From: Gemmatimonadaceae bacterium
GTDB taxonomy: Bacteria > Gemmatimonadota > Gemmatimonadetes > Gemmatimonadales > Gemmatimonadaceae
Assembly (NCBI GenBank): GCA_030647905.1
Contig: JAUSJA010000011.1
Coordinates: 1-62,021 of the forward strand
DNA: 62,021 nt
Reading direction: 5' to 3'
Shown: piece by piece, positions 2,655-52,936 of the stretch
Layout of the letters: each line of letters begins with the position of its first letter
Position numbering within the stretch: the first letter of the stretch is position 1
Position numbers and translations under genes: made by a program
Notes under the pieces: generated by a model
What the model was told of the DNA's origin: nothing
The model's database searches: none
The model's input: the letters and a program-made list of their open reading frames with translations, nothing else

Positions 2655-2655
2655 T

Positions 2656-33920: not shown

Positions 33921-34346
33921 TTGTCGCGCCGGCCCAGGACGCTACCGATGCAGCCGCGCAGTCATCTGCAAGTTCAGGTTCGGCACGTCCTGCGAGAAGT
34001 TGCGGCATGCCCGTTATGCGGTTGCCGACCGGGCCATTCCGGCGATCGCGTTCGCGAGTGCCACCCGCCAGTGCGGCGGAGTCCGACCCATCGCCACCAT
34101 TCATCTGTTTAGCCGGCTCGCCCCAGGCCGGTCAAGCGATACATGGGGCCGTAGGGAGTGCCGATCCAGCGCGCCACAGCGCCAGGCAACTCCGGGTAAC
34201 GATCGGGGCTGCGAATATAACGCCTGAATGACGGGCGCCGTGCACATTCCCCCCGAAGCTCTTGCGGACGATTCGCACCTTGCGTTCATCGGGATCCGCT
34301 CGGCAATCGGACTTTCACTATTTCACACCGTTTGGGAGAGACACGT
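33921..34346. other. Gene-free upstream region of the pilin block
   Basis: No supported coding sequence. It includes aatataacgcct at 34218-34229, a 12-mer also found at 44041-44052, again 120-150 bp before a paralogous pilin gene. A ribosome site (gggagaga) lies just before the pilin ATG. Confidence 0.45.
34218..34229 (+). promoter_or_regulatory. Shared promoter-like 12-mer with TATAAC
   Basis: aatataacgcct, 129 bp before the pilin ATG at 34347, identical to 44041-44052, which is 148 bp before the paralogous pilin at 44189. A TATAAC box also occurs upstream of the pilus ATPase operon (minus strand, 54692-54687). Confidence 0.35.
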
Positions 34347-35003
34347 ATGAAACAGTTCTGGAAGAAAGGGAAGAACGCCGTACGGCGAGGCTTCACACTC
34401 ATCGAAGTCCTGGTGACGGTTGGTGTCATTGGCGTCCTGGTTGCGGTCACCGTTCCGGCTGTGACGTCACAGATGAGCGCGGCCGACCCGGCGCGCGTTC
34501 TCTCGGACCTGACCAACATCACCACGAGTATCGATGCCTTCAGCACTAACGTGCGTCCCAGCATGCCGGGCGATATCGAGGATCTCGCCAACCAGATCGC
34601 CGCGACGGGTGACATGGACGGCGGAACGGTGGCTCTGACCCCCGCCGTCTACGGCATTGCCAGCACGAAGTGGAAAGGACCCTACATCGGGAGACCTGTG
34701 GCCACGGGTGGCGCCATGACCGGCAAGGCGTTTGCAAGCGGGTACCAGAGCTATGTCCAGAACGATTTCGTACGCTGCAATTCCTTGGCTGATGCGGCGT
34801 GCACCACCGCCACGCCCGACTATCTCACCGTCAAGATTTCGCCGCTGACCACCGTCGAGTTCGAGCTCGTCAACAAGCTGATCGATGTCGGCGAGACGGC
34901 CGGAGCCGCGACTGGTGAGAGTCAGAAGTTCGGGAAGTTTCGATATGACAACGTAACAGCCTCCTCGACCGCATACTATTTTGCGATGCCTCTGATCCCG
35001 TAG
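34347..35003 (+). CDS. Type IV prepilin-like protein (pseudopilin/major pilin candidate)
   Basis: 218 residues. A short basic leader ends at KNAVRRG, with predicted cleavage before FTLIEVLVTVGVIGVLVAV (N-methylated Phe+1, Glu+5), the class III signal of type IV pilins and GspG/H-type pseudopilins. The globular part has KWKGPYIGRPV and ends in YYFAMPLIP. A paralogue with the same landmarks lies at 44189 (KWKGPYINRDV and an FTNIEAILDEGVAGAAS segment like VEFELVNKLIDVGETAGA here). A ribosome site and a TATAAC motif lie upstream. It is likely a major or core subunit of the MSHA-like system on the minus strand further on. Confidence 0.88.
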   Translation: MKQFWKKGKNAVRRGFTLIEVLVTVGVIGVLVAVTVPAVTSQMSAADPARVLSDLTNITTSIDAFSTNVRPSMPGDIEDLANQIAATGDMDGGTVALTPAVYGIASTKWKGPYIGRPVATGGAMTGKAFASGYQSYVQNDFVRCNSLADAACTTATPDYLTVKISPLTTVEFELVNKLIDVGETAGAATGESQKFGKFRYDNVTASSTAYYFAMPLIP

Positions 35004-35024
35004 TTCAGGCGGATTCACGATTGC

Positions 35025-37382
35025 GTGTGGCCACTGGCGTTCCCGGTGGCCACATTGTTTTTTACTCATATGCAGCAAGTCCCTTCGATCGAAGAGCCGA
35101 AACTCCACAGCGTCGCGCGACTGCTGCTGTTCGCGACCGTGCTCACACCGGTCATCCTGCTTCCCGGCTTCTTTTTCCCTTATATCACCACCCGCGCCAT
35201 CTTCTTCCGGGTGATCGTGGAGCTGGCGCTCGGCATCTTCCTCTTCGTGGTCGTCCGGAGACGGTGGCGGCCCCAGGCCTCGCGTGACCCGGTTTTCCTG
35301 GCGCTCCTGGCCTTCGTCGCAATCAATGCCATCGCCGCCACGTTCGGTGTTTCGCCGCTGCGAAGCATGTTCGGAGACTACGAGCGGATGTGGGGCGTCT
35401 GGGCGTGGATCCACCTGCTGCTTTTTTACGTCTTGCTGCGCACGTTCATGCGCCCCGCCGACTGGATGCGTTTCTTCCAACTCTCGGTAGCCGTGAGCCT
35501 TGTGGTTGCGCTCATCGAGATCCGCAGTTGGGCCGTCAACGGCGGGACCAACTCAACGATTGGCAACCAGGGTCTCCTGGCGCCGTACCTCCTTTTTCAC
35601 ATGGGCTTCGCCTGCTTACTTGCGTTGCGCCATCGCGTTCGCTCGTGGCGCATAGCTAACGCCGGCGTCGCGGTCATTATTCTGGTCGGGATTTTCCTGA
35701 CGCAGAATCGCAGCATCTTGCTTGGCCTCGTCGTTGGATCCGTGGTGGCCCTGCTCGTTGCGCGCCGGAGCCGATGGCTGGGTGTTGCTCTCGTCTGTGT
35801 TGTAGCGGCTGCCACGGTAGTGGCGCGCACAATGGCTGATAGACCCATCGCCCGATACCTGCCGGGCAACGTACAGCGTCTCGCTGCGACTGGCACCAAG
35901 AAAGAAAGTAAGAGCGACGACCCGCGAAAGATGCAGGTAATCGTCACCCTTGCGGGGCTCAAGGAGCATCCGTTGCTTGGCGTGGGTCCAGAGAACTTCG
36001 ACGTGCTGTGGAGTGCGCACTTCGATTCACGCATCTACCCAGCGGGCCCTGATGAGCGCTGGGACCGCGCTCACAGTGCGTACATGGAGGCCGCCGCCAC
36101 TACCGGCATCCCCGGCGCGCTGGCCTACTTGGGCTTCTGGGTCGCGCTGTTTGTTGGTGTTCGCCGGGCGTACCGCAAGCAGCGCCTGACGGTCGCCGAA
36201 CTGAGCATTTGTTGTGGGCTCATCGGCGGTTACATGACCTACTTGCTGTTCTGGTTCGTGGATCTCAACTCGGCGCTGCCGTGGATAGCGCTGGCCGCAT
36301 TCCTTTCCGCGACTGCCGCCGGTGAGCCGCTTGTGGTGACGGGCGACAAGAAAGCATGGCGGCCCGGCGGCGTTGTCATCCTCGGGCTGGGCGTTGTCAC
36401 CATCGCAATGGCAATCCTGGTGCACGGTGTCGCGCCATTGCGCGTCGCCCGGGTGCTGCATCTGGTTGGTCGCGGAGACGCTGCCGTAGAAGAGAATCTC
36501 GCCTATCTGGATTACGCTTTCGCTTCACCAGCGCCGCAGAAATCGCATACGCTCCAGGTGTATTCCGCCTACATGGCGTCGCTCGCGCCATCATTCCCCG
36601 CTGCCCGTCGCGAGCCGTACCGCGGCCGGGTTCTGGACCTCGCGCTGCAGCGGGGGTTGCTGGAGTACGACCGGCAGATTCGCCGCGATCCGCAGAACCC
36701 TCGTGTCCACATTCAGCGCGCCCGCCATTCCCTGTTGGCGCTTCAGTTCTACGGCGATCGGAAATACGCGTTTGCGGCGGAGAGCTCGCTGGTCGCGGCG
36801 ACTCGCCTCTCACCCGGCAGAGTCCCGCCGCGATTGGCTCTGGCGTCTATCCATCTCATCCTCGGTGACACCACCAGAGCCTTGAAGGATGTGCGCGGCG
36901 CCCTCTCCGTCAATGACGCGCGTGGAGACACCTACTACGTCCTCGGCTCGGTGTATGACAAACTGGGGCTGGTGGACAGCGCCGCGACGTTCCTCATAAA
37001 GGCAGAGCGCCTTAAGTACGTTGGGCCTCCCGAAACCATTCTCTCCGTTAGTGCGGCGCTCGAACGTCAAAATGACGAAAAGAGAGCGGCCCAGCTCGTC
37101 GCGGGCTATCTCGAAAGGAAATACGGTGCGCTGACAACGTGGAGCCGGCCGGGACGGGGTCCGAGTAGCGAGATCCTGGACCGCTTGCTGGCACTTCGCC
37201 TGCCAGTATTATTTCTGAAGGCGGGCCAGACGGATCGCGCCGTGCTTGCGGCGCGAGCGGTCTTCTTCGTGAGCCCCCCGGCAACTCGTGCTTCCATCGA
37301 GCAATTCATCGCCGACGTGAATGCCGGGAAAGGATCTTCCTGGCACAGCCGCTCCACTGTCGCCGAAGCGACCGGTCGCTAG
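35025..37382 (+). CDS. O-antigen ligase/Wzy-like membrane protein with TPR-like C-terminus
   Basis: Up to 785 residues. Residues 1-450 hold about eleven membrane helices (LLLFATVLTPVILLPGFFF and others). The Wzy_C-type periplasmic loop lies near residues 310-365 (LKEHPLLGVGPENF, then DERWDRAHSAYMEAAATTG with the conserved His). Residues 490-785 are helical repeats of TPR type (PRVHIQRARHSLLALQFYG, DTYYVLGSVYDKLG). The family contains O-antigen ligases, polymerases and pilin O-oligosaccharyltransferases. Its position between pilin genes favours pilin glycosylation (inference). The start is GTG 35025, or ATG 35070 (MQQVPSIEEP). Confidence 0.82.
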   Translation: MWPLAFPVATLFFTHMQQVPSIEEPKLHSVARLLLFATVLTPVILLPGFFFPYITTRAIFFRVIVELALGIFLFVVVRRRWRPQASRDPVFLALLAFVAINAIAATFGVSPLRSMFGDYERMWGVWAWIHLLLFYVLLRTFMRPADWMRFFQLSVAVSLVVALIEIRSWAVNGGTNSTIGNQGLLAPYLLFHMGFACLLALRHRVRSWRIANAGVAVIILVGIFLTQNRSILLGLVVGSVVALLVARRSRWLGVALVCVVAAATVVARTMADRPIARYLPGNVQRLAATGTKKESKSDDPRKMQVIVTLAGLKEHPLLGVGPENFDVLWSAHFDSRIYPAGPDERWDRAHSAYMEAAATTGIPGALAYLGFWVALFVGVRRAYRKQRLTVAELSICCGLIGGYMTYLLFWFVDLNSALPWIALAAFLSATAAGEPLVVTGDKKAWRPGGVVILGLGVVTIAMAILVHGVAPLRVARVLHLVGRGDAAVEENLAYLDYAFASPAPQKSHTLQVYSAYMASLAPSFPAARREPYRGRVLDLALQRGLLEYDRQIRRDPQNPRVHIQRARHSLLALQFYGDRKYAFAAESSLVAATRLSPGRVPPRLALASIHLILGDTTRALKDVRGALSVNDARGDTYYVLGSVYDKLGLVDSAATFLIKAERLKYVGPPETILSVSAALERQNDEKRAAQLVAGYLERKYGALTTWSRPGRGPSSEILDRLLALRLPVLFLKAGQTDRAVLAARAVFFVSPPATRASIEQFIADVNAGKGSSWHSRSTVAEATGR

Positions 37383-37483
37383 ATGGAACAGCCATCGGGT
37401 ACACCTCGGCTTCTTGTCTGGGTGCCTCCAGACAATAGATTATAAGACTCCTGTGCGTCCTTCCATTTACTGCGAAGTGTGCC

Positions 37484-38125
37484 TTGCAGCGCGATCTGGA
37501 TAGATCTGATAGCTTTCGCCGATACTCTCCTGGGAGCAGGGGATTGACTCTTGTCGAGATGGTTGTCGTACTCGCAATTCTCGGAGTGCTCTCAACCGTG
37601 CTCTATGCGACGGTTTCGACCAACGTTTCGGCTAAGAACGATGTCGATCGGATCAACAACGTCGCTAAGACTCTGGACGACCTGTCCCGCGCCATAGCTT
37701 TCTTCGAGCCCACGCGTCAGGCTTTTACGTTTCACCAGACAATCGGGGTGTATCCCGGTCGTCTCTCGCACATTACGACCGTGATCACGACCTCCCAGCG
37801 CAACAGCTGTGGTGCTTTTTACACCGCCGGGAACGTGGTCGCGTGGATTGGGGGTTACTACAACCGTGAGCTGCCGCCCGCGGGATTCCCGATTGACGCT
37901 GGATTTACTTCCCAGGATTCTCTCGTTCGAACACCGTCCAGCGCCGGTGGCACGCTCAACGGGACCCTCGCGATCGTAATACCCGGGGTGTCGGCGTCCG
38001 ATGCGGGGATGCTGGCTTCCACGGTGGATGGAGATTCTACTGGGACGGTGGGAACTGTACGGTTTACACGGAACGGGTCTAATCCGGTGACAGTCTCGTA
38101 CCTGACGGCGGTGGGAGGATGTTGA
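37484..38125 (+). CDS. Prepilin-like protein with paired cysteines
   Basis: 213 residues starting at TTG 37484. The class III leader ends SPGSRG, with cleavage before LTLVEMVVVLAILGVLS (Leu+1, Glu+5), a helix, then a globular domain with SQRNSCGAFY and a C-terminal GGC. The mid-domain Cys and the terminal Cys recur in the next three genes and probably pair as a disulphide in the periplasm. First of four co-directional pilin-like genes packed with overlaps. The pattern suits minor pilins of a type IV pilus or type II-like machine. Confidence 0.85.
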   Translation: MQRDLDRSDSFRRYSPGSRGLTLVEMVVVLAILGVLSTVLYATVSTNVSAKNDVDRINNVAKTLDDLSRAIAFFEPTRQAFTFHQTIGVYPGRLSHITTVITTSQRNSCGAFYTAGNVVAWIGGYYNRELPPAGFPIDAGFTSQDSLVRTPSSAGGTLNGTLAIVIPGVSASDAGMLASTVDGDSTGTVGTVRFTRNGSNPVTVSYLTAVGGC

Positions 38126-38778
38126 GACGATCCGGCTCGACGCTTCTCGAGCTACTGGTCACAATCGCGGTTCTTGCCGCGATCGGGGGTGTCATTTACA
38201 TAAATGAGTCAAGGAGCAGCACCCAAATCGGGAGCGACGTCGAGCGGATTGACCGGGCGTCGCGCGTCCTCTCGGAGCTGGCCGATGCAATCGGCAGAAC
38301 GACGGGAACCGGGGGCGTGACATCGTTCAACCAGATCATTGGCCAGGTGAACGCCACGGTCAGTGCAAACACAGGCCGACTCTCACAGCTGACCACGCCG
38401 ATTACAACCAGCAACATGAACAGCTGCATGTACACTTACACCTCATCCGAGGCCGGCAGGTGGACGACTCCTTTTTATTATCGCTTTGTCCCGCAGTCGG
38501 GCTTTCTCATCGCGCCCGGGTTTTTCGTCCAGGATAGCTTGATAAGGTATAACGCTGCCGGTGTTGCGACTACAGTCGCCAACCGCCCCGCCGCAAATGA
38601 TGCTACATCATTCGGCACACTGGCGCTGGTGATGCCAAATACATCTCGCTCCGACGCCGACGCATTGGCCGCCCGGGTGGAAGGAGATCAGACCGGTGTT
38701 GGGGGTGCTATTCGCTTTACTGCTTCGGGTTCCGCCCCTGTGACGTTGTTCTATCACTTCACCATTCGCGGCTGCTGA
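38119..38778 (+). CDS. Prepilin-like protein with paired cysteines
   Basis: 219 residues. ATG 38119 overlaps the previous stop by 7 bp. The leader is very short (MLRRSG) before STLLELLVTIAVLAAIGGV, with Glu at +5 but Ser at +1 instead of Phe. The globular part shares the layout of its neighbours: FNQIIGQVNATVSANTGRLS, then SNMNSCMYTY, DSLIRYNAAG, and the C-terminal IRGC. A minor-pilin role is likely. The repeated architecture suggests local duplication and divergence. Confidence 0.83.
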   Translation: MLRRSGSTLLELLVTIAVLAAIGGVIYINESRSSTQIGSDVERIDRASRVLSELADAIGRTTGTGGVTSFNQIIGQVNATVSANTGRLSQLTTPITTSNMNSCMYTYTSSEAGRWTTPFYYRFVPQSGFLIAPGFFVQDSLIRYNAAGVATTVANRPAANDATSFGTLALVMPNTSRSDADALAARVEGDQTGVGGAIRFTASGSAPVTLFYHFTIRGC

Positions 38779-38779
38779 A

Positions 38780-39388
38780 ATGAAATGCAGCTTGATCTCC
38801 GACGGGTGCGGCGCATGGCGATCGCCAGGGATTGCGAAGCGGCCAGGCTTCGCCCTGTTCACGGCGCTGGTCACGATCGCGGTAATAGCCGTGCTGGCTA
38901 CTGTCATCGTGCTCTCTCTCAACGTTGATTTCAACCGGATCGCAATAGCCCAGGATTCGTTGTTCCGGTTCAAAACCGAAATTATAGGCACACCTCCCTC
39001 TTTCTTTACCCGAATCAACACCTACCCGGGACACCTCTTCGATCTCGTACAACCGATTACCACTAGTCAGACGAACAGTTGCGGTCAATTCTACAAGTCG
39101 TCACCTGACGTGAACAACTGGCAAGGCCCCTATCATCTCGTTCCGTTCAATCCCGCCCTCGGTTACACGATGGCCCGCGGACTTGTTGCCAACGACTCGA
39201 CTCGGCGGACGACCTTTACGGATGCAACGCCGGCGCTTGCCATCGTCATGGCAGATGTCCAGCTCGCCGACGCCCAGGCTCTCAAGGCGCGGGTGGACGG
39301 GACCACCGGGGACACGGTTGCCTTCACGCCGAACGGAAGCAACCCGATAACAGTCTTGTATAGAATGCCAACCACCGGGGCATGCTGA
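38780..39388 (+). CDS. Prepilin-like protein lacking Glu+5 (possible tip subunit)
   Basis: 202 residues. The leader ends AKRPG before FALFTALVTIAVIAVLATV, so position +5 is Thr, not Glu. In type II secretion the tip pseudopilin GspK also lacks Glu+5, so a tip-like role is possible (inference; the protein is otherwise not GspK-sized). Globular features match its neighbours: FFTRINTYPGHLFDLVQPIT, SQTNSCGQFY, a WQGPY element and the C-terminal TTGAC. It begins right after the upstream stop and overlaps the next gene by 7 bp. Confidence 0.82.
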   Translation: MKCSLISDGCGAWRSPGIAKRPGFALFTALVTIAVIAVLATVIVLSLNVDFNRIAIAQDSLFRFKTEIIGTPPSFFTRINTYPGHLFDLVQPITTSQTNSCGQFYKSSPDVNNWQGPYHLVPFNPALGYTMARGLVANDSTRRTTFTDATPALAIVMADVQLADAQALKARVDGTTGDTVAFTPNGSNPITVLYRMPTTGAC

Positions 39389-40002
39389 GAAACCCGCCGG
39401 CGGCGGAGCGCGGGTCGCCGCATCTCGGATTCTCTATGGTCGAGGTTCTCGTGGCCCTCGCGATTGCGGCGCTTCTTGCAGCCGTTCTCATTCCCGCCAT
39501 AATCGGGAAGGTACAGGACGCGCGCCGCTCTGCGCTGTCCCAGACATTGTTTGCCCTCAGTCAAGGCATAGCCGAGTATCGCAAAGCTGTGACGCGGTAT
39601 CCGCCGACGCTCACCGTCCTCACAACTCCGCCGATCGCCGGCGTGACGACGGATCTGTGCGGCGGATCCAATTTCCTTTCGCAGGCGAACGTGAATAACT
39701 GGCGTGGCCCTTATGTATCTCGCGAGTTGCTGAGTAGCGGTGTCAGCATGGCCGATGGCGTCATCCAGAACACTTTGAGAAGAGCCACTTTAAGCACCTC
39801 CGTTTATCTGCTCATGGATGTAGTCGGCGTGGAAAGGAGGACAGCGACGGATTTGGAAAGTGACTTGGACGGAGCGGTCTCGGATTCGACGGCCGGCACC
39901 ATCAGGTTCACGACTGCTGCTTTGCCTTCGCCCTCCACGGTCGGCGCAGCGCCTCCGGGCACGGTGAATCTTTCGTACTCGATTCCTATCGCTGGTTGCT
40001 AG
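39382..40002 (+). CDS. Prepilin-like protein with paired cysteines
   Basis: 206 residues. The leader ends SPHLG before FSMVEVLVALAIAALLAAV (Phe+1, Glu+5). The globular domain contains ITTDLCGG-like spacing (VTTDLCGGSNF), the NNWRGPYVSREL element shared with other pilins here, and the C-terminal IAGC. It overlaps the previous gene by 7 bp and its 3' end overlaps the convergent regulator gene by 17 bp, so antisense effects at the ends are possible. Confidence 0.84.
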   Translation: MLRNPPAAERGSPHLGFSMVEVLVALAIAALLAAVLIPAIIGKVQDARRSALSQTLFALSQGIAEYRKAVTRYPPTLTVLTTPPIAGVTTDLCGGSNFLSQANVNNWRGPYVSRELLSSGVSMADGVIQNTLRRATLSTSVYLLMDVVGVERRTATDLESDLDGAVSDSTAGTIRFTTAALPSPSTVGAAPPGTVNLSYSIPIAGC

Positions 40003-43000
40003 CTCCCTTGCCCGCCAGCCAGACACTCACGTCGTCAAACGTCACCGCGGCCCCCGTTCCGCGGCCACCCAACCACAGTTGGGCGCTACTGTTCTCTTCG
40101 GAGCGAGTCGCGCGGACAGTGGAGCGCCAGCGAAGCTTGCCGTCGGCGTAGAACGCGACTCTCCCATCGGATTCGATGGTGAATCGGAACAGGTGCGCGT
40201 TGCCGTCGCCAAGAGCAGCAGCGGGCTCGGTGAAGATTTCCTGGTCCACCGCATAGCCGATCCGTCCCGCGTCACCGAGCCACGAGATGGACACCAGACG
40301 CAGGAATTGCGGAGCCACGGAGTCGAGCGCCTCGGGAGGTTCTTCGGCGACCAGCGCGATCGCCGCCGAGGCTGACGGGACCGACGTGCTGGTGAAAGGC
40401 GCTCGCATCCACGTTTCCAGAGACAGTCCGCTTCTGATCCGAAATACCGATCGGCTCAATACGCCACTATCCCATTCGCGGTCGGCCATCGGCGCGAGCC
40501 CGGCGCTGGCCAGTCGTCCGCTTCGCGGCTCGACGCGCGGGGCCGGCTCGCCGAGCGATATCCACGTGTCTTTCGACAGCCCGCGTTCGAAATCTTCGCG
40601 CGCCAGCGCGAGCGGTCCGGCGCCCACCAGGATGTAGGCTGTATCCGTGCGCCAGCCGCCGAGGCTCGCGACCAGGCGTGCGAAACCAGAGCGCCGCCCA
40701 ACAAGCCACCCCGAGGTATTGGAGGAGCGGAGCGACTGTTTCTCGTCCGTCGCGCGAACGAATCGCGCGGCGGCAGAGTCGAGGAGCGTCCATCGAACTT
40801 GCCTGACCTCGAACGAAGAACCCAGTTGATCGGTGCCGGTCACCGATATCGCGCCGCTGTCACCCTCGGCTACCCATTCCGGCGCGCGAATGCGCAACTG
40901 GTCGGGGTACGGTAGCGGCGCTCCCCGCCAGCCAAGAATGCTCATGCGGCTGTCGGCCGGAGTGACACGGTGCGCGGTGCCGCCCCACGAGGGCATCACG
41001 TACACGCCGGCCTCTCCGCCGCGAGTTGACTCGAAGGCGACAAACTGTCCATCGGGCGAGAAGCTGGCCCGATCGTTATGAGAGGTGTCGTACGTGAGGC
41101 GGCGCAAATGACCAGTCAGCACATCCGCGGCATACAGCTCAGCCGTGCCATTCCGCTCACTTGTGAAACCGACTTGCGTGCCGTCGGCCGACCACGCTGG
41201 ATTGTAATCTTCGCCCGGATCATCGCTCAGGTTTCGGAGGCCGGTGCCGTCCGTGCGACTGACGAAAATGTCCTGTTGGTGGTTCGCTCCCGTCCGCGCC
41301 GTCCACGCCACATGCAGTCCATCGGGTGACCACACGGCGTCGGCGACGGCCCGCGAGCGCGACGTATCGAGGGCGATCCGCTCTCCAAAAGAAAGGACGG
41401 AGTACGCATAGAGATCGGAGTCGTAGGCGCCATCGGGCAGCGTGCCGCCGTGAATGACGAGAAGCCAATGGCCGTCAGGGGACCATCCCGACGCAATATC
41501 GTCGCCCGCGCCGACGGCAATCGGGATTGTATCACGCCTGTTCGCGCTGATCGCGTAAACATCGGAGCCGGCGGCAGTCACTCGCTCCACAGACACGAAG
41601 TGACCGTCCGGCGCCACGGAAGGATTGACCCAGGGGCGCTTGACTGAGTCCCTCCAGGCGAACGCGGCGTCGGAGGTCCGGCCGGGTCTCGCCAGATGCG
41701 TGAGGTCGGCAAGGTCGCCGGTGATGAACGAGACGGGCGGCCGCTGACCGGGCACGCGTTCCGCGAGCACCAGCGTGTCAGTGAGCGTTCGGCCTCGCAA
41801 CGAGGCCTGACGAGCGCCGCGAACGCGGACGGAGAACAGCAACAGAACCGCTACAACGAGCGTTCCGCCCAGAGTTGCCCGACGGGTGAATAGCCAGGTC
41901 ATGCGCGGGGTCTTTGCTGCGCGCGTCGCAGTGCCGATTTCCTCGATCGGTGACGAGGCGTCTGCCGGAGGAGCGGCGGGACGCATGGAATCACCCTTCA
42001 GGCGGGCGGGTCCAACTCCGATCGCGCTGCGCAGGCTGGTGACTCTTTCGCGTTCGGCTTCCGTGGAAGCGAAGCTGCCCGCGATGTCAAGAAAACGCCC
42101 AGCCGACGTCCACGCCGCGGCGGCCATGGCTTGGTACGCGGCGACGATCGAATGCGTGAAGGCGAGCTCGGATCTGCCGGCCAACGCGTAGAGGTGAGCC
42201 AGTTCGGTGTCGGTGGCGCCCGGTTGGGCGGCCAGCGCGTCCGCTGCCCAACCGGCGAGCAGAGCGAGTCCGGCCGAGCCTATTCCCTCCAGTGCGAGCG
42301 ATGCCGCGACATCATGCGCAGGCCTGATACCTCTGGCATCCTGGGTCACAAGCCCGAGCTGCTCCAGCGCCATGGCCGATTCGAATGCCGCGATTTCCGA
42401 CAGGTGAGCCGCGGCAGCGAGCAGCCGCAAAGATGCTGCCCGGTCGAACAGCGCCACGGCGACGAACAGCCGCTGTTGGGCGGGTGACGCCCCCTGAAGG
42501 CGCGACCACAGAATGTCGCGGATGCCGGCCGGTACGCTCGCGATCGATTCGCCGGCCGCCGTCCGACGCGCCGTTTCGATGATTTTAAACGGCATGCCCT
42601 CGGAGGCGCCGACGATCTCGTCGAGCTCCAGAGGAGGCGCCATTTCCGCGGCCAGCACGGACGAGGCAAGCGCGCGTGCAGCGTCTGCCGCGAGCGGCTG
42701 CAATGTTATGCGCGAGGTTTCGGAGAACCTGTCCCCAAAGGCTCCGTTGCGCGCTGACAGAACAAAGAGCACGCCGCACGCGCGGAGCCGATTCGTCAGA
42801 TACTGGGCCAGATCCAGCGTGTTTGTGGAGGCGTTGTGGAGGTCCTCGAGCACGACGCAAACCGGCTGCTCGTACGCCACAGCATCGAGAACCGCGGCGA
42901 CGCCTTCGAAAAAGCGCACCCGCTCAGAATCGTCGCTGATGGCCGCGAGGGCGGGAAGGACGAACCGATCGCGAAGCTCGGGAAGCAGCCGCGCGGCTTC

Positions 43001-44056
43001 TGCCAACAGGTGTTGGCTCGCGCCAGCCAGTCCGGGCGCCGTCAGGGCGCCTCGCAGGGCCTCGGCGATCGAAGCGTGGGGAATCGCGGCGCCGCCCTGG
43101 CGCTCTCGACCGCGCAACAGCAATGCCGAGCCCATGTCGCGGACTCGCGCCAGGAATTCATCGATCAGTCGCGTCTTACCGATGCCCGCTGCGCCGTCGA
43201 GCAAAATGGTTCCACCATCTCCCCCTTGCGCTCGACGCCATCCTCCCATGAGGACGGTGATCTCGGAGTCGCGCCCGACGAAGGGCAGAGTTGTGCGGCC
43301 GGGTGCTCGGCGCGACTCCTCAGCACCAGACTTCCTGAGCTTGCCGATCAAGGCAAGCACGGCGGGAGATGCTGCAGCGCCGAGCTCCGTCTGCATGCGC
43401 GATCTGAATCTCTCGAGCGCGACAAGCGCTTCCGGTTTTCTACCAGCGGCGATGAGAATCGTGGCTTCGAGTACCGCGGCGTCGGCATCGAGCGGGGCAT
43501 AGGCGGCCAGCCGTGTAGCGTACCTCAGCGCGTCCCGTACCTCTCCAGCCTCGAGTGCTTCCTGTGCCGCCGAGGTGAGCGTCGAGCGGTACCGGGCACC
43601 GATCCGCGATCGCTCGGTGGTCACCCACTGGTCGAAGTCGTCTTCTCCGAGATTGAGACCTTCGAGAAATTCACCGCGGTAAAGTTGGAGCGCGTCAGCG
43701 GTGCGGCCGGCGTCGAGAGCGGCTTCGAAGTCGCGGAGATCGAGTGTCAAAGTCTCCGTGGCCCCAAGGCCGATGATATCCCGGCCGGTGGGAGCGGCAT
43801 CCCGACCCATTGCGGTCCGCAAACGGTGCAGCGCCTGCCGAAAGGCATTGCGCGCCTTATCCTCGGGGATGTCGCCCCAGAGGAGGGCGATCAACTCCTC
43901 GCGCCGCGCGGGCCCCCGTACGGCGAGGTAGGCCAGAAGCGCCAAAGGCTTGCCCGGACCAAGGACGGGTATCTGCGGGTCGGTATCGCGGTCCAGTGAA
44001 GGAGAACCCAGCAGTTTAAGCCGGAAGGCGGTCACGCCCCAATATAACGCCTCCAT
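39986..44056 (-). CDS. Membrane-spanning SARP/BTAD regulator with AAA domain, PD40 propeller and lectin-like C-terminus
   Basis: 1356 residues. Residues 10-100 form a winged-helix DNA-binding domain and 100-245 the BTAD domain (RREELIALLWGD, ARNAFRQALHRLRTAMG, YRGEFLEGLNL). An AAA/STAND-type ATPase follows with the P-loop GAAGIGKTRLID near residue 290. One membrane helix lies near 722-745 (LGGTLVVAVLLLFSVRV). After it come PD40/TolB-like blades (GWSPDGHWLLVIHGG, VWSPDGLHVAWTAR, FSPDGQFVAFESTRGG; residues 800-1050) and a C-terminal jelly-roll like a LamG domain (SGLSLETWMRAPF, VAFYADGKLRWRSTV). The topology suggests a sensor outside and DNA binding inside. It sits between pilin genes, so control of the pilus or polysaccharide is likely (inference). 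GTG 44035 is an alternative start. Confidence 0.88.
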   Translation of the reverse strand: MEALYWGVTAFRLKLLGSPSLDRDTDPQIPVLGPGKPLALLAYLAVRGPARREELIALLWGDIPEDKARNAFRQALHRLRTAMGRDAAPTGRDIIGLGATETLTLDLRDFEAALDAGRTADALQLYRGEFLEGLNLGEDDFDQWVTTERSRIGARYRSTLTSAAQEALEAGEVRDALRYATRLAAYAPLDADAAVLEATILIAAGRKPEALVALERFRSRMQTELGAAASPAVLALIGKLRKSGAEESRRAPGRTTLPFVGRDSEITVLMGGWRRAQGGDGGTILLDGAAGIGKTRLIDEFLARVRDMGSALLLRGRERQGGAAIPHASIAEALRGALTAPGLAGASQHLLAEAARLLPELRDRFVLPALAAISDDSERVRFFEGVAAVLDAVAYEQPVCVVLEDLHNASTNTLDLAQYLTNRLRACGVLFVLSARNGAFGDRFSETSRITLQPLAADAARALASSVLAAEMAPPLELDEIVGASEGMPFKIIETARRTAAGESIASVPAGIRDILWSRLQGASPAQQRLFVAVALFDRAASLRLLAAAAHLSEIAAFESAMALEQLGLVTQDARGIRPAHDVAASLALEGIGSAGLALLAGWAADALAAQPGATDTELAHLYALAGRSELAFTHSIVAAYQAMAAAAWTSAGRFLDIAGSFASTEAERERVTSLRSAIGVGPARLKGDSMRPAAPPADASSPIEEIGTATRAAKTPRMTWLFTRRATLGGTLVVAVLLLFSVRVRGARQASLRGRTLTDTLVLAERVPGQRPPVSFITGDLADLTHLARPGRTSDAAFAWRDSVKRPWVNPSVAPDGHFVSVERVTAAGSDVYAISANRRDTIPIAVGAGDDIASGWSPDGHWLLVIHGGTLPDGAYDSDLYAYSVLSFGERIALDTSRSRAVADAVWSPDGLHVAWTARTGANHQQDIFVSRTDGTGLRNLSDDPGEDYNPAWSADGTQVGFTSERNGTAELYAADVLTGHLRRLTYDTSHNDRASFSPDGQFVAFESTRGGEAGVYVMPSWGGTAHRVTPADSRMSILGWRGAPLPYPDQLRIRAPEWVAEGDSGAISVTGTDQLGSSFEVRQVRWTLLDSAAARFVRATDEKQSLRSSNTSGWLVGRRSGFARLVASLGGWRTDTAYILVGAGPLALAREDFERGLSKDTWISLGEPAPRVEPRSGRLASAGLAPMADREWDSGVLSRSVFRIRSGLSLETWMRAPFTSTSVPSASAAIALVAEEPPEALDSVAPQFLRLVSISWLGDAGRIGYAVDQEIFTEPAAALGDGNAHLFRFTIESDGRVAFYADGKLRWRSTVRATRSEENSSAQLWLGGRGTGAAVTFDDVSVWLAGKGASNQR
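44041..44052 (+). promoter_or_regulatory. Shared promoter-like 12-mer with TATAAC
   Basis: aatataacgcct, identical to 34218-34229, 148 bp before the pilin ATG at 44189 on the same strand. It also overlaps the first codons of the divergent regulator if that uses ATG 44056, which is one reason to consider the GTG start at 44035. Confidence 0.35.
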
Positions 44057-44188
44057 TACGCGCTCGAAACAGCGGCTCTTTGCGGTGTAACGAACGAAAC
44101 GTATGACATAACGAGGCTGTTACGTGAAGGTCGTAGTTTTTCGCAGAGTTAATGACGACACAAACATTTTCAACCGGGACATTTTCCA

Positions 44189-44749
44189 ATGATTGCCACG
44201 ACACTGATTGGCCGACGCGCAGGTGGCCGACGCTCGGGCTTCACGCTGACAGAGGTGTTGGTCACGTTGGCGATCATTGCGGTGATGGCAGCGGTGCTGC
44301 TGCCGGCGCTGAACAGCCAACTGTCCAAGGGTGACACAGGCCGGCTCGCGAGCGACTTCACGAACATCCAGACCGGAGCACAGGCATTCGTTTCCGACGT
44401 GCACCGATACCCGGCCACCGTTTCGCAGCTCACGACCGCACTGAGTGGTACCCCCACTGACCTCCTTAGCGTGGCCATTCCAGCCACCCTTGTCGCCAAG
44501 TGGAAGGGTCCATACATCAATAGGGACGTCGGTAACACCGCAGGCGGCGTCATCTCCACCTCGTTCACGAGTGTGGCGGGCGGAAACGGGGTTAATTATC
44601 TGACCGTTACCGTCACTGGGATCAGCCTTACCGACTTCACCAACATCGAGGCGATTCTCGATGAGGGCGTAGCGGGTGCGGCGTCGAGTACGGGCTCGAT
44701 CCGGTACACTGGCACGACGCTCACCTTTCTGGCGCTGCCGATCCAGTAG
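44189..44749 (+). CDS. Type IV prepilin-like protein (paralogue of the pilin at 34347)
   Basis: 186 residues. Leader MIATTLIGRRAGGRRSG, cleavage before FTLTEVLVTLAIIAVMAAV (Phe+1, Glu+5). The mature part has a long N-terminal helix, KWKGPYINRDVG, an FTNIEAILDEGVAGAAS segment and ends FLALPIQ; these landmarks are shared with the 34347 pilin, which ends FAMPLIP. It has no cysteine. It stands alone on the plus strand between the divergent regulator and the convergent pilus operon, and has its own upstream TATAAC motif. A major-pilin role is possible. Confidence 0.87.
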   Translation: MIATTLIGRRAGGRRSGFTLTEVLVTLAIIAVMAAVLLPALNSQLSKGDTGRLASDFTNIQTGAQAFVSDVHRYPATVSQLTTALSGTPTDLLSVAIPATLVAKWKGPYINRDVGNTAGGVISTSFTSVAGGNGVNYLTVTVTGISLTDFTNIEAILDEGVAGAASSTGSIRYTGTTLTFLALPIQ

Positions 44750-44779: not shown

Positions 44780-45328
44780 TCAACGGCACGGCGCGCAGTC
44801 AGTCTGGTGCGGGCGCGCCGCGACCACGAGCTTCGCCAGCATCGCGCTGACCCCGAATCGCGCCTGGATAGTCGCGGCGCTCGCCGCATTGACGTTTACC
44901 GGCAGATCATAGAACACCAGTCTGGGATATGGCGCAATCAGTTGGACCGGGCCGAGCGTGAGTCCGGCCTGCTCGATGACCGACTGTAGCACCTCGCGTG
45001 CGTTCGCGTCGACAACGTGCACGGTGACCCGGCCGCGCGCATCTGGAGCAATCACCATACTGACTCCGGCGGCGCTCGCCAGTGCTGGCAACAGCTCCCG
45101 GACGTCCGCATTGGCGGCAGAGAGTGTGATGCGGGAGCCCTGTCCCGCCGCCGTGTCCACCGAGGACCGCAGCACGGAAGGGACAGCCAGCACATCGACC
45201 GCAAGCGGAGGAAGGGTAGACGGGAGCGAAGGTCGCGATGGCAATCTGTACGCGCCGCAACCGACGCATAGAATGCACACCGCGAGCGCGTCGAGACGGA
45301 TCCGGCGACTCACCAGTACGTTAGACAT
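44780..45328 (-). CDS. Lipoprotein with secretin STN-like domain
   Basis: 182 residues. The signal sequence LDALAVCILCVGC ends with a lipobox (CVG before Cys), so it should be an outer-membrane or periplasmic lipoprotein. Residues 70-125 resemble the secretin/TonB short N-terminal domain (ITLSAANADVRELLPALAS, VSMVIAPDARGRVTV). It is last in the MSHA-like operon; its ATG overlaps the preceding stop (ATGTCTAA). Possible role: pilotin or secretin partner (inference). It is not similar enough to a named family to give a symbol. Confidence 0.7.
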   Translation of the reverse strand: MSNVLVSRRIRLDALAVCILCVGCGAYRLPSRPSLPSTLPPLAVDVLAVPSVLRSSVDTAAGQGSRITLSAANADVRELLPALASAAGVSMVIAPDARGRVTVHVVDANAREVLQSVIEQAGLTLGPVQLIAPYPRLVFYDLPVNVNAASAATIQARFGVSAMLAKLVVAARPHQTDCAPCR

Positions 45329-46487
45329 CGTTGCCACCCTTGCCACCCTTTAGCGTCTTGAGGTGTTGCGTGACTTGCTTCTCCAGCGCCGGGAACTGAC
45401 CCGCGCCCGTCGTCAGGAACAATTCGTACTCCTGGATCGCACCAGCACGCTCCCCGAGACTCTCCAGCGTCCGTGCCAGCGAGTAATGTGCCTCCGCCAG
45501 CGAGGGGTTGACCCTGAGTACTTCCTCGAGCAATCGCTGGGCGTTCGCGTAGACACCGATCGCATAGAACTGATTGGCGAGATTGACCTTGCTGCCCGTA
45601 TTCGACGGATCGAGTGCCAGCGCCTGCTGAAGCGCCGCCGTCGCTTCCTTTCGCTTGCCGCGCTGCTCCAGGAGGACACCGAGATTGCTCCACGCCGCGG
45701 CGAACTTCGGGTTGATGGAGATCGCTCGCCGATACGCATCTTCGGCGCGCTCCAACTCTCCGGTCGACCGGTAGAGCAGCCCCACGTTGTTGTATAGCTC
45801 GGCGTTGTTGGGGTTCCGCTCGATCGCCTTTGCGTACAAGTCCCGCGCGCGCGCAATGTCGCCGCGTTTCTGGGCCGCGAGAGCCTCAAGAAAAAGCGTG
45901 TTGCCTTCGCGTCCGGCTGGCTCCATGGTGATCTTGAACGCCCCTTCGTTCCTGCGGTCGCTCACGGCATCCGCCGGCGCAACGAGTGGCTGCTGGCGAC
46001 CCGCTGACATGACGGGCACGTCGCCCACCACTGAGCGGGTTCCGCCGCTATCGTTTGTACCGGGAAGCACGGCGCCGGTCGCCGACCGCGTGACGTTGAC
46101 TGGAGCCGGAGTGATGAGCGCTGCCATCGCGGGATCTGGTTCGCGAACGGCTGGCTGGGTCGTCGGTGACGCAGCGGATGCACTCGGCGCCGCCGCGACC
46201 GGCGCGGGGACGGATGCGGCTGGACTGGCAATCGGCGGCGTCAACGCCGGTCGTCTCTTGTCTGGGGACCGCGATGAGGCCAACAGCAGCGTAATGAACA
46301 CCCCGAGGACGCCCACGGCCGCCAGCGCGCCGAGCCCAATTTGGACGCCGCGCGGAAGCGCGGATTGGGCGGGTCCCGCCGGCGAGCGAAACGAAAAGAA
46401 ACTTTTCGGCGCCAACGCGTGCAGTGGCGGCATGCGCTGTTTCTTTTCGTGAAGCGCGGTCTTCAGCGCGTCGGCGATCAGACTCAA
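45321..46487 (-). CDS. MshN-like TPR protein of the pilus assembly system
   Basis: 388 residues from TTG 46487, which overlaps the upstream ATPase stop (TTGA) and gives the family start SLIADALKTALHEKK. The frame runs further upstream, but that part lies inside the ATPase gene. A membrane helix near residue 52 (IGLGALAAVGVLGVFITLLL) is followed by a Pro/Ala-rich linker and about five TPR units (NNAELYNNVGLLYRSTGE, AAWSNLGVLLEQRGKRKEA, AEAHYSLARTLESLGERAG). Like MshN/GspB-type proteins, it probably links the inner-membrane ATPase to periplasmic parts. Confidence 0.8.
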   Translation of the reverse strand: MSLIADALKTALHEKKQRMPPLHALAPKSFFSFRSPAGPAQSALPRGVQIGLGALAAVGVLGVFITLLLASSRSPDKRRPALTPPIASPAASVPAPVAAAPSASAASPTTQPAVREPDPAMAALITPAPVNVTRSATGAVLPGTNDSGGTRSVVGDVPVMSAGRQQPLVAPADAVSDRRNEGAFKITMEPAGREGNTLFLEALAAQKRGDIARARDLYAKAIERNPNNAELYNNVGLLYRSTGELERAEDAYRRAISINPKFAAAWSNLGVLLEQRGKRKEATAALQQALALDPSNTGSKVNLANQFYAIGVYANAQRLLEEVLRVNPSLAEAHYSLARTLESLGERAGAIQEYELFLTTGAGQFPALEKQVTQHLKTLKGGKGGNDV

Positions 46488-47443
46488 CTCAACCGCCAAC
46501 TCAAGAGCGACGGCAGGGTGTAGCCGGCTCGATAAAGGAGGAGGGCAGCCGCCGCAACGATCAAGGCGAGCCCGGCGGCGCCAGCCATGACCCACCGCTG
46601 GCGGCGGAAATCGGCGTGAGTGTAATCGGATGCATCGCCACGCAGGGAAGCGATCGCCTGGTTCACGTGTTTGGTGTCGAGCTTGTATGTCCTTTCGACG
46701 TAGCCCGCGAGCAGGGTCTGATCGCAGATCGCATTGATGCTGCGCGGAATGCCGCACGATGCGGCGTGCACCCGCTTCAGAGCCCGGCGGGAAAAAACGA
46801 CGCGGCCTTGTGCGCCCGCGACCTCGAGCCGGTGATAGATGTACCGCCTGGTCTCTTCGAAATCCAGGTGCGTAAGGGTACAACGCACGGAGACGCGCTG
46901 ACTGAGTTGCGCCATCCCGGGCACGTTGATCTTGTTCAGGAGCTCCGGCTGCCCGACCAGCAGAATCTGGATCAGCTTTTCTTCAGCCGTCTCGACATTC
47001 GACAGCACGCGAATCTGCTCCAGAAATTCCGTGGACATGTGCTGCGCCTCGTCGAACACGGCGACGCACGTTCGGCCGGCCGCGAGCTGGTCCAGCAGGA
47101 ACCGGTTGAGCGCACCGAGAAGCTCGTTCCGGCTTGCGTTTGCGGGGGCAGGAACGTTGAACTCCGTCAGCACCGCCTGGAGCATCTCCGCGCCGGTGAG
47201 GAACGGGTTGAAGAGCAGCGCCGAGCGATGCGTCCTGGCGTCAAGCTTGTCAATCAGGTCCCGGCACAACGTGGTCTTTCCCGTGCCGGGCCAACCGGTG
47301 AGAAGCATGAAGCCATCTTTGCGATCGATTGCGTACGTCAGCTCATCCTCCGCCTGCCGATATCGCGCCGAATAGAAAACAAACCTGGGATTCGGCGTTA
47401 ACGCAAACGGACGCTCGCTGAGTTGGAAAAAGCTTTCGTACAT
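46484..47443 (-). CDS. mshM: ExeA/MshM-type AAA ATPase
   Basis: 319 residues. Starts MYESFFQLSERPFALTPNPR, the classic ExeA/MshM opening. Walker A is GWPGTGKTTL near residue 52, Walker B VAVFDEAQHM, then LLVGQPEL and a lid region IPRSINAICDQTLL. A C-terminal helix (MAGAAGLALIVAAAALLL) anchors it to the inner membrane. In MSHA and type II systems such ATPases help place the secretin through peptidoglycan. It is coupled to the next gene by a TTGA overlap. Confidence 0.88.
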   Translation of the reverse strand: MYESFFQLSERPFALTPNPRFVFYSARYRQAEDELTYAIDRKDGFMLLTGWPGTGKTTLCRDLIDKLDARTHRSALLFNPFLTGAEMLQAVLTEFNVPAPANASRNELLGALNRFLLDQLAAGRTCVAVFDEAQHMSTEFLEQIRVLSNVETAEEKLIQILLVGQPELLNKINVPGMAQLSQRVSVRCTLTHLDFEETRRYIYHRLEVAGAQGRVVFSRRALKRVHAASCGIPRSINAICDQTLLAGYVERTYKLDTKHVNQAIASLRGDASDYTHADFRRQRWVMAGAAGLALIVAAAALLLYRAGYTLPSLLSWRLS

Positions 47444-47446
47444 TGG

Positions 47447-49135
47447 TTAGGGGCGGGCCCGCGGCTGTCCTACGATAATCGTAGGCGTGAGGAATATCAC
47501 CAGCTCGTCCTTTTGCACTTTGTTCGACACGCCTCGGAACAGCCAACCGATGCCCGGGATGCTGCCGAGAAGCGGCACGCCGGTCGCTGTCTTGTCGCGC
47601 CGGGTTTGCATCAGACCACCGATCACGATGGTCTCGCCATCACGAACGCGGGCCATGGTGTCCGTTTCCCGGTGGCTGGTCACAGGCGCTTCGGCGGAGC
47701 TGCCATCCTCGAGCTTGATCGTCGCGATCCGCTCGACGTTGGTGATGCTCGGCAAGATGCTGAGTGTGATGCTATTGTCCGCGCCGATCTGCGGCAACAC
47801 GTTGAGCACGATACCGATCGACACTTGCTGCGGCGTGATCGTCGGGCTGAAGCCGATCGTGCCGCCGTTGGGTCCGATGATTGGCGTTCGCGTCACGTTG
47901 AAGAATACTTCATCCGTAGTGACGTTGAACACCGCGCGCTCGTTGTTGAGCGTGGCGACTCTGGGGCTCGAGAGCACGCTAACGTCGCCTTGCGTTTCGA
48001 GGGCGCGGAGAACGGTCAGGATTTGCGAGGCGCCGCCGCCGATCGTCAGCTGGATGCCTCCGCCACCGAGCGGGGCGTTGTTGATCTTCACCCCGAGTTT
48101 GCCTGATTTGCTCAAGGCGGTCCAGTCAATGCCGAACTGTGACTCCTTGCTGAGCGTGACCTGAACGATCTTCGCCTCGATGAGGACCTGGCGTTGGATC
48201 GAGCCTTCGAATGCCGAGATGAACGTCGCAACTTCGGCGAGCTTCGCCGGGGGCGCGGTCACCAGGATGGTGCCAGCGCCCGGATTGATGATGAGCCGTC
48301 GTCCATCGGACGTCGTCTTGCTCAGGGCTCCTCCCCGCGACAGACCCGCCGAGAGTGGTTGTCCAACTGGCGCGGGGGAGCCGGCCGCGATACCCCCTTC
48401 GCCGCCGGTGCGCGTAGCGTCAAAGACGAGACCATCGAGGGAAACCTTGAGCTCTTCCCAAACGTCGGAGACGGCATATGTGGCGATAAAGTCCGAGCCA
48501 CCCGAGCTCCCAATAATCCCGAAGGGGTTCGCAGTCTGATTGCCGCCTCCGCTCAACCGGCGCTGAATCGACGTGTTTGTCGAGCCAACTCGCTGCAAGG
48601 CGACGTAATCGAGAGAGAACATCCGGGTCTGCAGTCTCGCCGCGCCGACCTGAAGCACTCCGCCTTCGATGCTGTAGCTGTAGCCCTGTGGCAGCACGAT
48701 GGCGTCGAGGGCCTGCTCCAGCGTCACGCCCTGCAGCCGCGTGTTGACCGAGCCACGCACATGGGGGTCAATCTGATAGTTGAGCCCAAAGCTCGTCGCG
48801 AGACCCCGCAGCACGACAGGCAGCTCTTTCCCCACGACATCCAGAAGCTGGATACGCCTCACGGGTTCATCGGCATCGCTGATCTGCGCGATCATAAGGC
48901 CGGGCAGATAAGCCGAGGCGTGCGCGGTATCGCGAGGCGCCCCGGCTTTCGGGTCCGACTTGACCGGCTCGACATAGACACGCGTGCGATAGTCGGTGCC
49001 CGGATCAGGCTCGGCCGCCGTCACGGGAACGGCGGAGTGACCAGATGCGCAACCTGTCGCCCCAAGCGCGATCGCGATAGTCGAGAGGATGAAAGCGCGT
49101 GAAGCGCCTGCGGCGTTTTTTCGGAGCGGTTTCAC
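47447..49135 (-). CDS. mshL: MshL-like secretin
   Basis: 562 residues. A lipoprotein-type signal (IALGATGCASG) at residues 20-32, an STN/N0 domain (ELPVVLRGLATSFGLNYQID), an N1-like domain (IINPGAGTILVTAPPAKLAE) and a C-terminal secretin domain (EAKIVQVTLSKESQFGIDW, SSPRVATLNNERAVF, VRDGETIVIGGLMQTRRDKT, VPLLGSIPGIGWLF). It forms the outer-membrane channel for the pilus. GTG 49135 overlaps the upstream stop (TAGTG). The length is normal for MshL. Confidence 0.92.
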   Translation of the reverse strand: MKPLRKNAAGASRAFILSTIAIALGATGCASGHSAVPVTAAEPDPGTDYRTRVYVEPVKSDPKAGAPRDTAHASAYLPGLMIAQISDADEPVRRIQLLDVVGKELPVVLRGLATSFGLNYQIDPHVRGSVNTRLQGVTLEQALDAIVLPQGYSYSIEGGVLQVGAARLQTRMFSLDYVALQRVGSTNTSIQRRLSGGGNQTANPFGIIGSSGGSDFIATYAVSDVWEELKVSLDGLVFDATRTGGEGGIAAGSPAPVGQPLSAGLSRGGALSKTTSDGRRLIINPGAGTILVTAPPAKLAEVATFISAFEGSIQRQVLIEAKIVQVTLSKESQFGIDWTALSKSGKLGVKINNAPLGGGGIQLTIGGGASQILTVLRALETQGDVSVLSSPRVATLNNERAVFNVTTDEVFFNVTRTPIIGPNGGTIGFSPTITPQQVSIGIVLNVLPQIGADNSITLSILPSITNVERIATIKLEDGSSAEAPVTSHRETDTMARVRDGETIVIGGLMQTRRDKTATGVPLLGSIPGIGWLFRGVSNKVQKDELVIFLTPTIIVGQPRARP

Positions 49136-49641
49136 TATTGACTCCCGGACTGGACACGTAGCTCGCGGCGAGCGCCGCCTGACTCCAGCAGAATGACGCG
49201 ATCTGGTTCGATTGCGACCACGGTGGCGCCGCCACCGACCGCCGCGCCTACACTGACAAGTGAATCATTGACGACGGCAACTCGTCGCGATTCGGTGATC
49301 ATGATGGCACTCACGACCCATCGCATAACCGGCACGCCCGCGGGCCGCGGCCGGTCCAGCGCCGGCATTCTGGGAGACGGCCGGCCAGCCTGAGCCAGGG
49401 CACTGAGCGAATCCGCCAAAGCGATCCCGTCGAGCGGGCGCGCGACAAACCGCGGTTGCACCGGCTGACGCGTAAGATACTGACTCAGCAGCTCCAGCTC
49501 AGCCACCTGATTCGGCGAAGGCGATTGCGCGCCTCCCGCGATAGCCGGCGCGAAGAGTCCCCGGGCCATCGCCGTCCCGAGGATCACCGCCGCGATGACC
49601 CCGCGGACCAGAAGAAAGCGGGCGTTCCTTGTATCCGTCAT
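49135..49641 (-). CDS. PilP/MshK-like periplasmic protein
   Basis: 168 residues. An N-terminal signal anchor (FLLVRGVIAAVILGTAMARG) is followed by a Pro-rich linker and a compact C-terminal beta region (SAIMITESRRVAVVNDSLVS, VGGGATVVAIEPDRVILLE). This layout is like MshK or PilP/GspC-type linkers, which connect the inner-membrane platform to the secretin. No strong family motif is seen; assignment rests on position between PilO-like and secretin genes. Overlaps both neighbours by 1-4 bp. Confidence 0.68.
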   Translation of the reverse strand: MTDTRNARFLLVRGVIAAVILGTAMARGLFAPAIAGGAQSPSPNQVAELELLSQYLTRQPVQPRFVARPLDGIALADSLSALAQAGRPSPRMPALDRPRPAGVPVMRWVVSAIMITESRRVAVVNDSLVSVGAAVGGGATVVAIEPDRVILLESGGARRELRVQSGSQ

Positions 49642-50231
49642 TGGCCGTTCGCTGGCTCATAGATGTCGAGCGTGACCGTGCCCCGGAGGCCGGTGCCTTC
49701 ACGCTTGAACTGCACGCCAGTGACGAGCACCGCCGCCGGGAGGTTTCCGATAAAGGCTCTGGTGGCGGCAAAATCGCCTCGAAACCTGACCGATATCCGA
49801 TAGGGGGCCAGGACGAATGCATGCGGGCCGGCAGCGTCCGGGAGCGGTGCAGCGGTGGCGGAGTCTGGCGGCTCGAAAGCAACGCGCACATCGGTGAATC
49901 CCGGCCGCTCGGCCTGGCCGGCGATCTCGCGCGCCAGGGTGAGCCGATCGTCGCGCCGACTGCCAAGCTGCCGCGTCTCCGACGACATCTGGCGCCAAGC
50001 GGCCAATTCCTCGCTGGCGGCCGGCTGGAATGTCGCGGCCCAATTGCCGAGCGTCGCAGCCGCGCGATCGAGCCGAGCCTCTTCGGCGCGCATGACTGTC
50101 TTCTGGCGGCCCGCTTTCACAACGATCCAGCCCGCACCAACAAGCACGAGGACCGTCAAGGAGAGCAACTGGACCCAGAACAGATGCTTGCGAAGATAGG
50201 CCGTCGGCGCGGCGAGCGAGATGGTCTTCAC
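49638..50231 (-). CDS. PilO/MshJ-like inner-membrane protein
   Basis: 197 residues. One N-terminal membrane helix (FWVQLLSLTVLVLVGAGWIV), a coiled-coil-like stretch (RAEEARLDRAAATLG) and a C-terminal ferredoxin-like beta-alpha domain (YRISVRFRGDFAATRAFIGN, VTGVQFKREGTGLRGTVTL), as in PilO/GspM proteins. It would pair with the PilN-like part of the next gene upstream. Starts and stops overlap by 4 bp on both sides, typical of a coupled operon. Confidence 0.78.
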   Translation of the reverse strand: MKTISLAAPTAYLRKHLFWVQLLSLTVLVLVGAGWIVVKAGRQKTVMRAEEARLDRAAATLGNWAATFQPAASEELAAWRQMSSETRQLGSRRDDRLTLAREIAGQAERPGFTDVRVAFEPPDSATAAPLPDAAGPHAFVLAPYRISVRFRGDFAATRAFIGNLPAAVLVTGVQFKREGTGLRGTVTLDIYEPANGQ

Positions 50232-52923: not shown

Positions 52924-52936
52924 CGTCAGTCCGGGA

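Follow-up and report, generated by a model that had tools for sequence, protein, structure and literature searches.

SARPs are known as soluble activators of antibiotic genes in actinomycetes, and we know of no SARP regulator in the MSHA pilus loci of Vibrio and Shewanella. The sites of SARPs consist of direct repeats 11 or 22 bp apart, with the 3' repeat 8 bp from the -10 element (PMC10936776), and sites with three heptamers and spacers of 4-15 nt are also known (PMC10972967). In the Streptomyces large SARP AfsR, the SARP domain contacts the -35 region and sigma region 4, and the ATPase and TPR parts inhibit the SARP domain until ATP binds (PMC10936776). Membrane-bound one-component regulators are common according to a survey of transmembrane transcription regulators, the main text of which mentions no SARP, BTAD or Gemmatimonadota (PMC10269533), and a SARP review mentions no membrane-embedded SARPs (PMC10972967). 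Literature searches for membrane-bound SARPs found none.

The DNA analysed here (the window) is a 62,021-nt stretch that forms one contig of a 3.1-Mb Gemmatimonadaceae genome; the genomes compared are draft assemblies. It encodes a predicted membrane-spanning large SARP within an MSHA-like type IV pilus locus (Table 1).

Domain architecture of the regulator

The regulator is encoded by an ORF of 1356 aa with no interruption. The initial annotation had described it as one chain joining a winged helix and BTAD, an AAA ATPase, a single helix, PD40 blades and a jelly roll, an architecture borne out by Pfam, the ortholog profile, hydropathy and structure models, with the helix as its weakest item. 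The SARP signature, an OmpR-type winged helix followed by a BTAD, is given by the BTAD match together with alignment to AfsR (residues 27-238/307), a profile of nine orthologs aligning residues 27-307 to the Streptomyces protein (8k60, E=4.3e-12). Pfam Trans_reg_C has no match in the window regulator and is present in paralogs. The winged helix contains the recognition segment RNAFRQALHRLR, which is kept in orthologs.

The STAND/NOD P-loop ATPase that follows the SARP domain in large SARPs is also present (AAA_16, residues 258-426), with the Walker A motif GAAGIGKTR. In one ortholog (L048, genome G006) this motif reads GPPGIGRTR, with arginine replacing the P-loop lysine, which suggests that ATP hydrolysis is perhaps dispensable in that protein. 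The C-terminal TPR sensor of large SARPs is absent from the window regulator, which instead has the helix, a PD40 propeller and a ConA-like fold in this position. There is one clear hydropathy maximum, at residues 727-745 (mean 2.05), and it is by hydropathy only that the protein classes as a transmembrane regulator, a single chain containing both a DNA-binding domain and one or more transmembrane regions.

Beyond the helix, the propeller has a PD40 Pfam match (E=1.3e-17), aligns to TolB in the ortholog profile (E=6e-38) and is of TolB/DPPIV type in an AlphaFold model of the outside part (m0b5605aeea90; Z 17.7 to TolB). The jelly roll has a sub-threshold Pfam match only (Laminin_G_3, E=0.2), and the model of residues 1145-1356 matches ConA-like jelly rolls (Foldseek E 1.7e-6; VIA, Z 12.3 over 155 residues, rmsd 3.8), resembling legume-lectin, ERGIC-53, galectin, CBM66 and GH16 folds, with a core pLDDT of mostly 70-85. 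The alignments behind the structure models are three deep, and confidence for the outside part as a whole is low except in the propeller and jelly roll. The Ig-like stretch between them (residues 1048-1144) has no database match and low model confidence, and no sugar- or metal-binding site was identified in the ConA-like jelly roll.

The pilus locus and distribution of the regulator

Pilin genes flank the regulator gene on both sides, as the initial annotation had stated. The machinery genes encode a TPR protein, an ExeA/MshM-like ATPase, an MshL-like secretin, products of genes in the MshI/J/K positions, PilC/MshG, and PilB/MshE with a c-di-GMP domain. The best NCBIfam match of the secretin is TIGR02519 (MshL, E=6.8e-67), at 225.5 bits against a cut-off of 250.2, and the extension ATPase carries the MshE c-di-GMP-binding domain (NF053729, 64.9 bits against a cut-off of 38). 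The Wzy_C-type protein encoded inside the pilin operon is possibly a pilin glycosyltransferase.

Table 1. Features of the regulator and pilus locus in the window
Feature	Position	Strand	Evidence or remark
Operator 1: GTAACGA-N14-ATAACGC-N4-ATGACGG-N8-CACATT(-10)	34196..34248	+	before pilin operon 34347-40002
PILIN1, type IV pilin-like, first of apparent operon	34347..35003	+	N_methyl E=2e-6; prepilin start
Wzy_C/O-antigen-ligase-like protein with TPR	35025..37382	+	Pfam PF04932 E=1.1e-19
Four minor-pilin-like genes	37484..40002	+	N_methyl in 3/4, one just below cut-off
SARP-STAND-TM-propeller-jelly roll regulator	39986..44056	-	ORF and domain matches; probable start GTG 44035
ConA-like jelly roll	40016..40615	-	about residues 1148-1347; model m2bd4cd34adaf
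Ig-like (Big2-like?) stretch	40625..40915	-	about residues 1048-1144; sequence pattern only
PD40/TolB-like beta-propeller	40937..41674	-	about residues 795-1040; Pfam, profile, model
Single predicted transmembrane helix	41816..41878	-	residues 727-747; hydropathy maximum; position kept in orthologs
STAND/AAA P-loop ATPase	42779..43285	-	residues 258-426; Pfam PF13191 (AAA_16) E=5.7e-18
BTAD	43337..43708	-	residues 117-240; Pfam PF03704 E=1e-11
OmpR-type winged helix	43712..44023	-	residues 12-115; profile alignment to AfsR 8k60/8hvr
Predicted -10 (TATATT) of regulator gene	44041..44046	-	CGTTATATT kept upstream of start in 5 loci
Two-repeat box ATAACGC-CTCC-ATTACGC	44044..44061	+	overlaps regulator's own -10; conserved in 5/8 loci
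Operator 2: GTAACGA-N14-ATAACGA-N4-GTTACGT-N8-TAGTTT(-10)	44087..44139	+	49 nt before PILIN6
PILIN6, divergent MshA-like pilin	44189..44749	+	N_methyl E=2e-7; duplicated in relatives
MSHA-like machinery	44780..54604	-	domain matches, relatives' loci

Orthologs of the regulator occur in 9 of the 179 family genomes (eight besides that of the window) and in 3 of 35 genera, with 42-47% identity and at full length where the contig permits, one copy being cut off by a contig end; no full-length match was found elsewhere among 395 genomes of the phylum. The MshL-like secretin is present in 10/179 genomes, namely the nine with the regulator and one in which the contig breaks off within the neighbouring pilin gene, and the regulator was found only alongside an MSHA-like type IV pilus locus. 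Its gene adjoins pilin genes in all seven ortholog loci with flanks, and in genus g6 it leads straight into the same block of four minor-pilin genes as in the window.

Elsewhere in the window, an apparent methionine-salvage cluster (1777-7980) includes two phosphorylase-like genes whose products start GxIGGSGxYD (1777 and 6198), the reading frame of the gene at 1777 looking short. A lower-GC stretch (12000-18000, about 49-54%) adjoins surface-glycan genes and contains a transposase-like fragment at 14816-15058.

Predicted operators at the pilin promoters

The initial annotation had predicted action on DNA near the pilus promoters, in the regions of 34218, 44041 and 54690. Both pilin promoters in the window, like their equivalents at the other loci, carry an operator of SARP geometry, which lends this proposal strong sequence support; no such operator is present at 54690. 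Each pilin promoter examined has three direct repeats followed by the -10 element (consensus GTNACRN-N14-VTAAYGN-N4-RTNACGN-N8-NANNNT), in which the repeat period (11 bp) and the distance to the -10 (8 bp) are those of published SARP sites. The -10 of PILIN1 in the window, CACATT, is weak. No box was found in the window before the machinery operon (54690 region), and among relatives the one signal, a weak one, lies upstream of the MshE gene in locus L059.

In the intergenic regions of 8/8 loci, two direct repeats of 11-bp period, an 8-bp gap and a -10-like hexamer face the divergent pilin gene. These eight PILIN6 boxes were first picked by eye with the SARP rule in mind, and further tests were therefore carried out. 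PWMs from which the locus under test had been excluded gave the pilin box the highest score in L048 (20 kb) and L051 (10.6 kb) and the second highest in the 62-kb window; they did not detect the boxes of L052 and of the three genus g14 loci. For L046, the best-scoring site was a previously unseen box upstream of PILIN1, which has GATATT at exactly the N8 position. When only the PILIN6 boxes served for training, the regions upstream of PILIN1 ranked, in all seven cases, among the 16 best of 258 genes, the rest of the 16 being mostly training genes. Because this PWM includes the -10, the N8 spacing at PILIN1 sites was partly selected; the sites found without the -10 in the search (L046, L054 and L057) have the N8 spacing too. 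In sequence terms, the SARP arrangement of an 11-bp period with NANNNT at N8 is represented by 15 boxes, counting the L053 site as corrected below.

In 14 of the 15 boxes, repeat 1 is preceded at exactly 21 bp by the third repeat, GTNAY, which had no role in site selection and occurs at almost no other offset. The fifteenth is the PILIN1 box of L053 in the register first assigned to it, which was wrong; the corrected site has all three repeats. A palindromic operator was also considered and rejected: a few boxes do resemble inverted repeats (GTAACG...CGTTAC), but identity over the 15 sites is 4.5/7 for direct against 1.3/9 for palindromic repeats. Locus L054 (genome G064) has a second triple-repeat site at 12304-12356, about 150 bp downstream of the first and before pilin genes.

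Genome-wide tests were pattern searches, with the pattern loosened by one letter to admit the PILIN1 site of the window. In the 3.1-Mb genome, two repeats plus the -10 gave two matches, both at pilin promoters (none for the reversed control), and the triple pattern gave the same two, at the two pilin transcription units. Across the nine genomes with orthologs, 17 of the 22 triple-pattern matches lie at the pilus locus, while 17 genomes in which no ortholog was found gave six matches in about 65 Mb. Genome G061 has a match on a 3.4-kb contig that had surfaced in none of the earlier searches, 57 nt before a prepilin start. The distance from box to pilin start could be read in the loci other than two of genus g14.

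The promoter of the regulator gene

The initial annotation had also drawn attention to a 12-mer, AATATAACGCCT, shared between the regulator and the pilin promoters. The word occurs exactly twice, at 34214 and 44041, and is absent at 54690. By itself it was set aside as regulatory evidence, both for this absence and because, in 62 kb, some 12-mer or other is expected to recur by chance; the word alone proves nothing. It matters only as a fragment of the operator: it overlaps operator 1, and its overlap with repeat 1 of that operator at 34217 and of the regulator's own box at 44044 explains it.

The copy at 44041 falls within the first codons of the called ORF, and the sequence suggests that, on the opposite strand, it is the -10 of the regulator gene itself. 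The conserved CGTTATATT upstream, together with the ortholog alignment, suggests that the true start is the GTG at 44035 (V8). Read on the other strand, CGTTATATT is the first half of the two-repeat box at this promoter, and the consensus of that box, ATAACGN-N4-RTNACRN, is found in the same five loci. A protein on the two-repeat box would cover the gene's own -10, and on this basis the regulator probably limits its own synthesis.

Proposed mechanism

Architecture, synteny, co-occurrence with the locus and an operator of defined geometry are present in the sequence itself, and from them it appears probable that a membrane-spanning large SARP activates the filament-subunit genes through three-repeat operators, with sensing by its outside part. 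Family, location and site geometry point to the regulator protein as the binder of the operator. We infer that the cytoplasmic wHTH-BTAD and STAND ATPase would bind the three-repeat operator just upstream of the -10 at both pilin transcription units, where the bound regulator would recruit RNA polymerase in place of a -35. By analogy with AfsR, activation is expected for the pilin operon 34347-40002 and the divergent pilin gene at 44189, the predicted targets, and the machinery operon would not be a target. The box over the gene's own -10 would probably add negative autoregulation.

A single helix would link the cytoplasmic part to the propeller, Ig-like stretch and ConA-like jelly roll beyond the membrane, and this outside part would replace the TPR sensor of AfsR and gate the ATPase switch. 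Gating would probably occur through a surface or pilus-associated ligand, speculatively pilin, the assembled pilus or a glycan, the last perhaps added to pilin by the neighbouring Wzy_C-type protein. The initial annotation had suggested that the protein could sense the state of glycan or pilus outside; the fold is lectin-like, and the pilin operon includes an O-antigen-ligase-like gene. A more specific proposal, which we hold only tentatively, is that a STAND activator uses its propeller and lectin-like domain to read the state of the pilus or pilin glycan across the membrane and passes this directly back to the pilin promoters; if so, control of the pilus inventory would need no two-component system.

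Alternative explanations

The operator, though real, might instead be the site of a soluble response regulator of OmpR/PhoB type whose gene lies elsewhere, with the SARP protein doing something else. Regulators of that type also recognise direct repeats of 11-bp period. In Streptomyces the AfsR box is read by PhoP as well, so that the two proteins share a site (PMC10972967). The N8 spacing to the -10 is nevertheless the SARP rule, a box covers the SARP gene's own -10 too, and wherever the assembly allows a test the SARP gene accompanies the locus. Furthermore, no other regulator gene is conserved in the pilus locus, and only one other SARP-ATPase match was seen in the window genome (27% identity), making a response regulator an unlikely binder in our estimation.

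The topology of the protein could likewise be read differently, residues 727-745 being no true transmembrane helix and the chain being soluble or peripheral, with propeller and jelly roll as cytoplasmic interaction modules. The moderate hydrophobicity of this segment, the positively charged arginines on both of its flanks and the presence in relatives of soluble SARP-ATPases of about 760 aa would agree with this reading, to which we give a rather small probability: the segment is kept in the orthologs of this protein and recurs near residue 710-720 in several paralogs, and TolB-type propellers and ConA-like jelly rolls are mostly exported. An extracytoplasmic location of both domains would fit the single helix and the domain types. 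It is very improbable that the C-terminal part serves mainly in pilus structure or adhesion, with the N-terminal regulator arising incidentally from gene fusion. The lectin-like fold and the pilin neighbours would suit such a role, but the N-terminus has no signal peptide or prepilin motif, operators exist, and the winged helix and ATPase (53% and 56%) are at least as conserved as the propeller (49%) and ConA-like domain (40%).

In the preferred reading, one chain combines DNA-binder, anchor and outside part, a matching DNA switch lies before the pilin genes, and pili may thus be controlled straight from the membrane. A membrane-spanning SARP of this kind, with operators predicted at base resolution and a small, testable pilin regulon, offers a route to study the action of a membrane-anchored DNA-binding protein and the means by which signals outside the cell can drive a STAND switch.

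Comparison with known systems

The MSHA loci of Vibrio and Shewanella share with this locus the MshL-like secretin, MshE-type c-di-GMP domain and ExeA-like ATPase. Closer to the regulator itself, other Gemmatimonadaceae encode SARP-ATPase-helix proteins of similar size (1347-1372 aa) with a hydrophobic segment near residue 710-720, some of them with PD40, and the window regulator is thus one member of a wider set, an apparent class of predicted membrane-spanning SARPs. Seven of these (L065, L067, L070, L072, L073, L075 and L076) are 1033-1372 aa long with the hydrophobic segment near 680-720, followed in some by PD40 or TPR. They differ in lying away from pilins and in their recognition helices, and within the set only the type found in the window occurs beside pilins of this kind of locus.

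Regulators of the ToxR, CadC and TcpP type, as covered in the main text of the survey (PMC10269533), likewise are single chains in which one helix connects a DNA-binding domain in the cytoplasm to a presumed sensor outside, and some of them control pili. The regulator described here differs in having a STAND ATPase placed between DNA-binding part and membrane. The SARP domain, large ATPase and three-heptamer operator recur in PimR and other SARP-LAL activators (PMC5930380), but the spacers of the PimR operator are all 4 nt and it has no -35 overlap (PMC5930380), and these activators target antibiotic genes and are not described as membrane proteins.

AfsR (PDB 8k60, 8jke, 8hvr) has the same wHTH-BTAD-P-loop core, aligned over residues 27-307, and the same site geometry of 11-bp repeats and 8 bp to the -10. 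Its C-terminus is a TPR sensor, in contrast to the helix, propeller and jelly roll found here, and no membrane association is described for it. The predicted targets of the present regulator are pilin genes, and its predicted operator includes a further repeat 21 bp upstream. SARPs and membrane-bound one-component regulators are thus both already known, and a STAND-type SARP with a predicted sensor across the membrane would be a new combination of the two.
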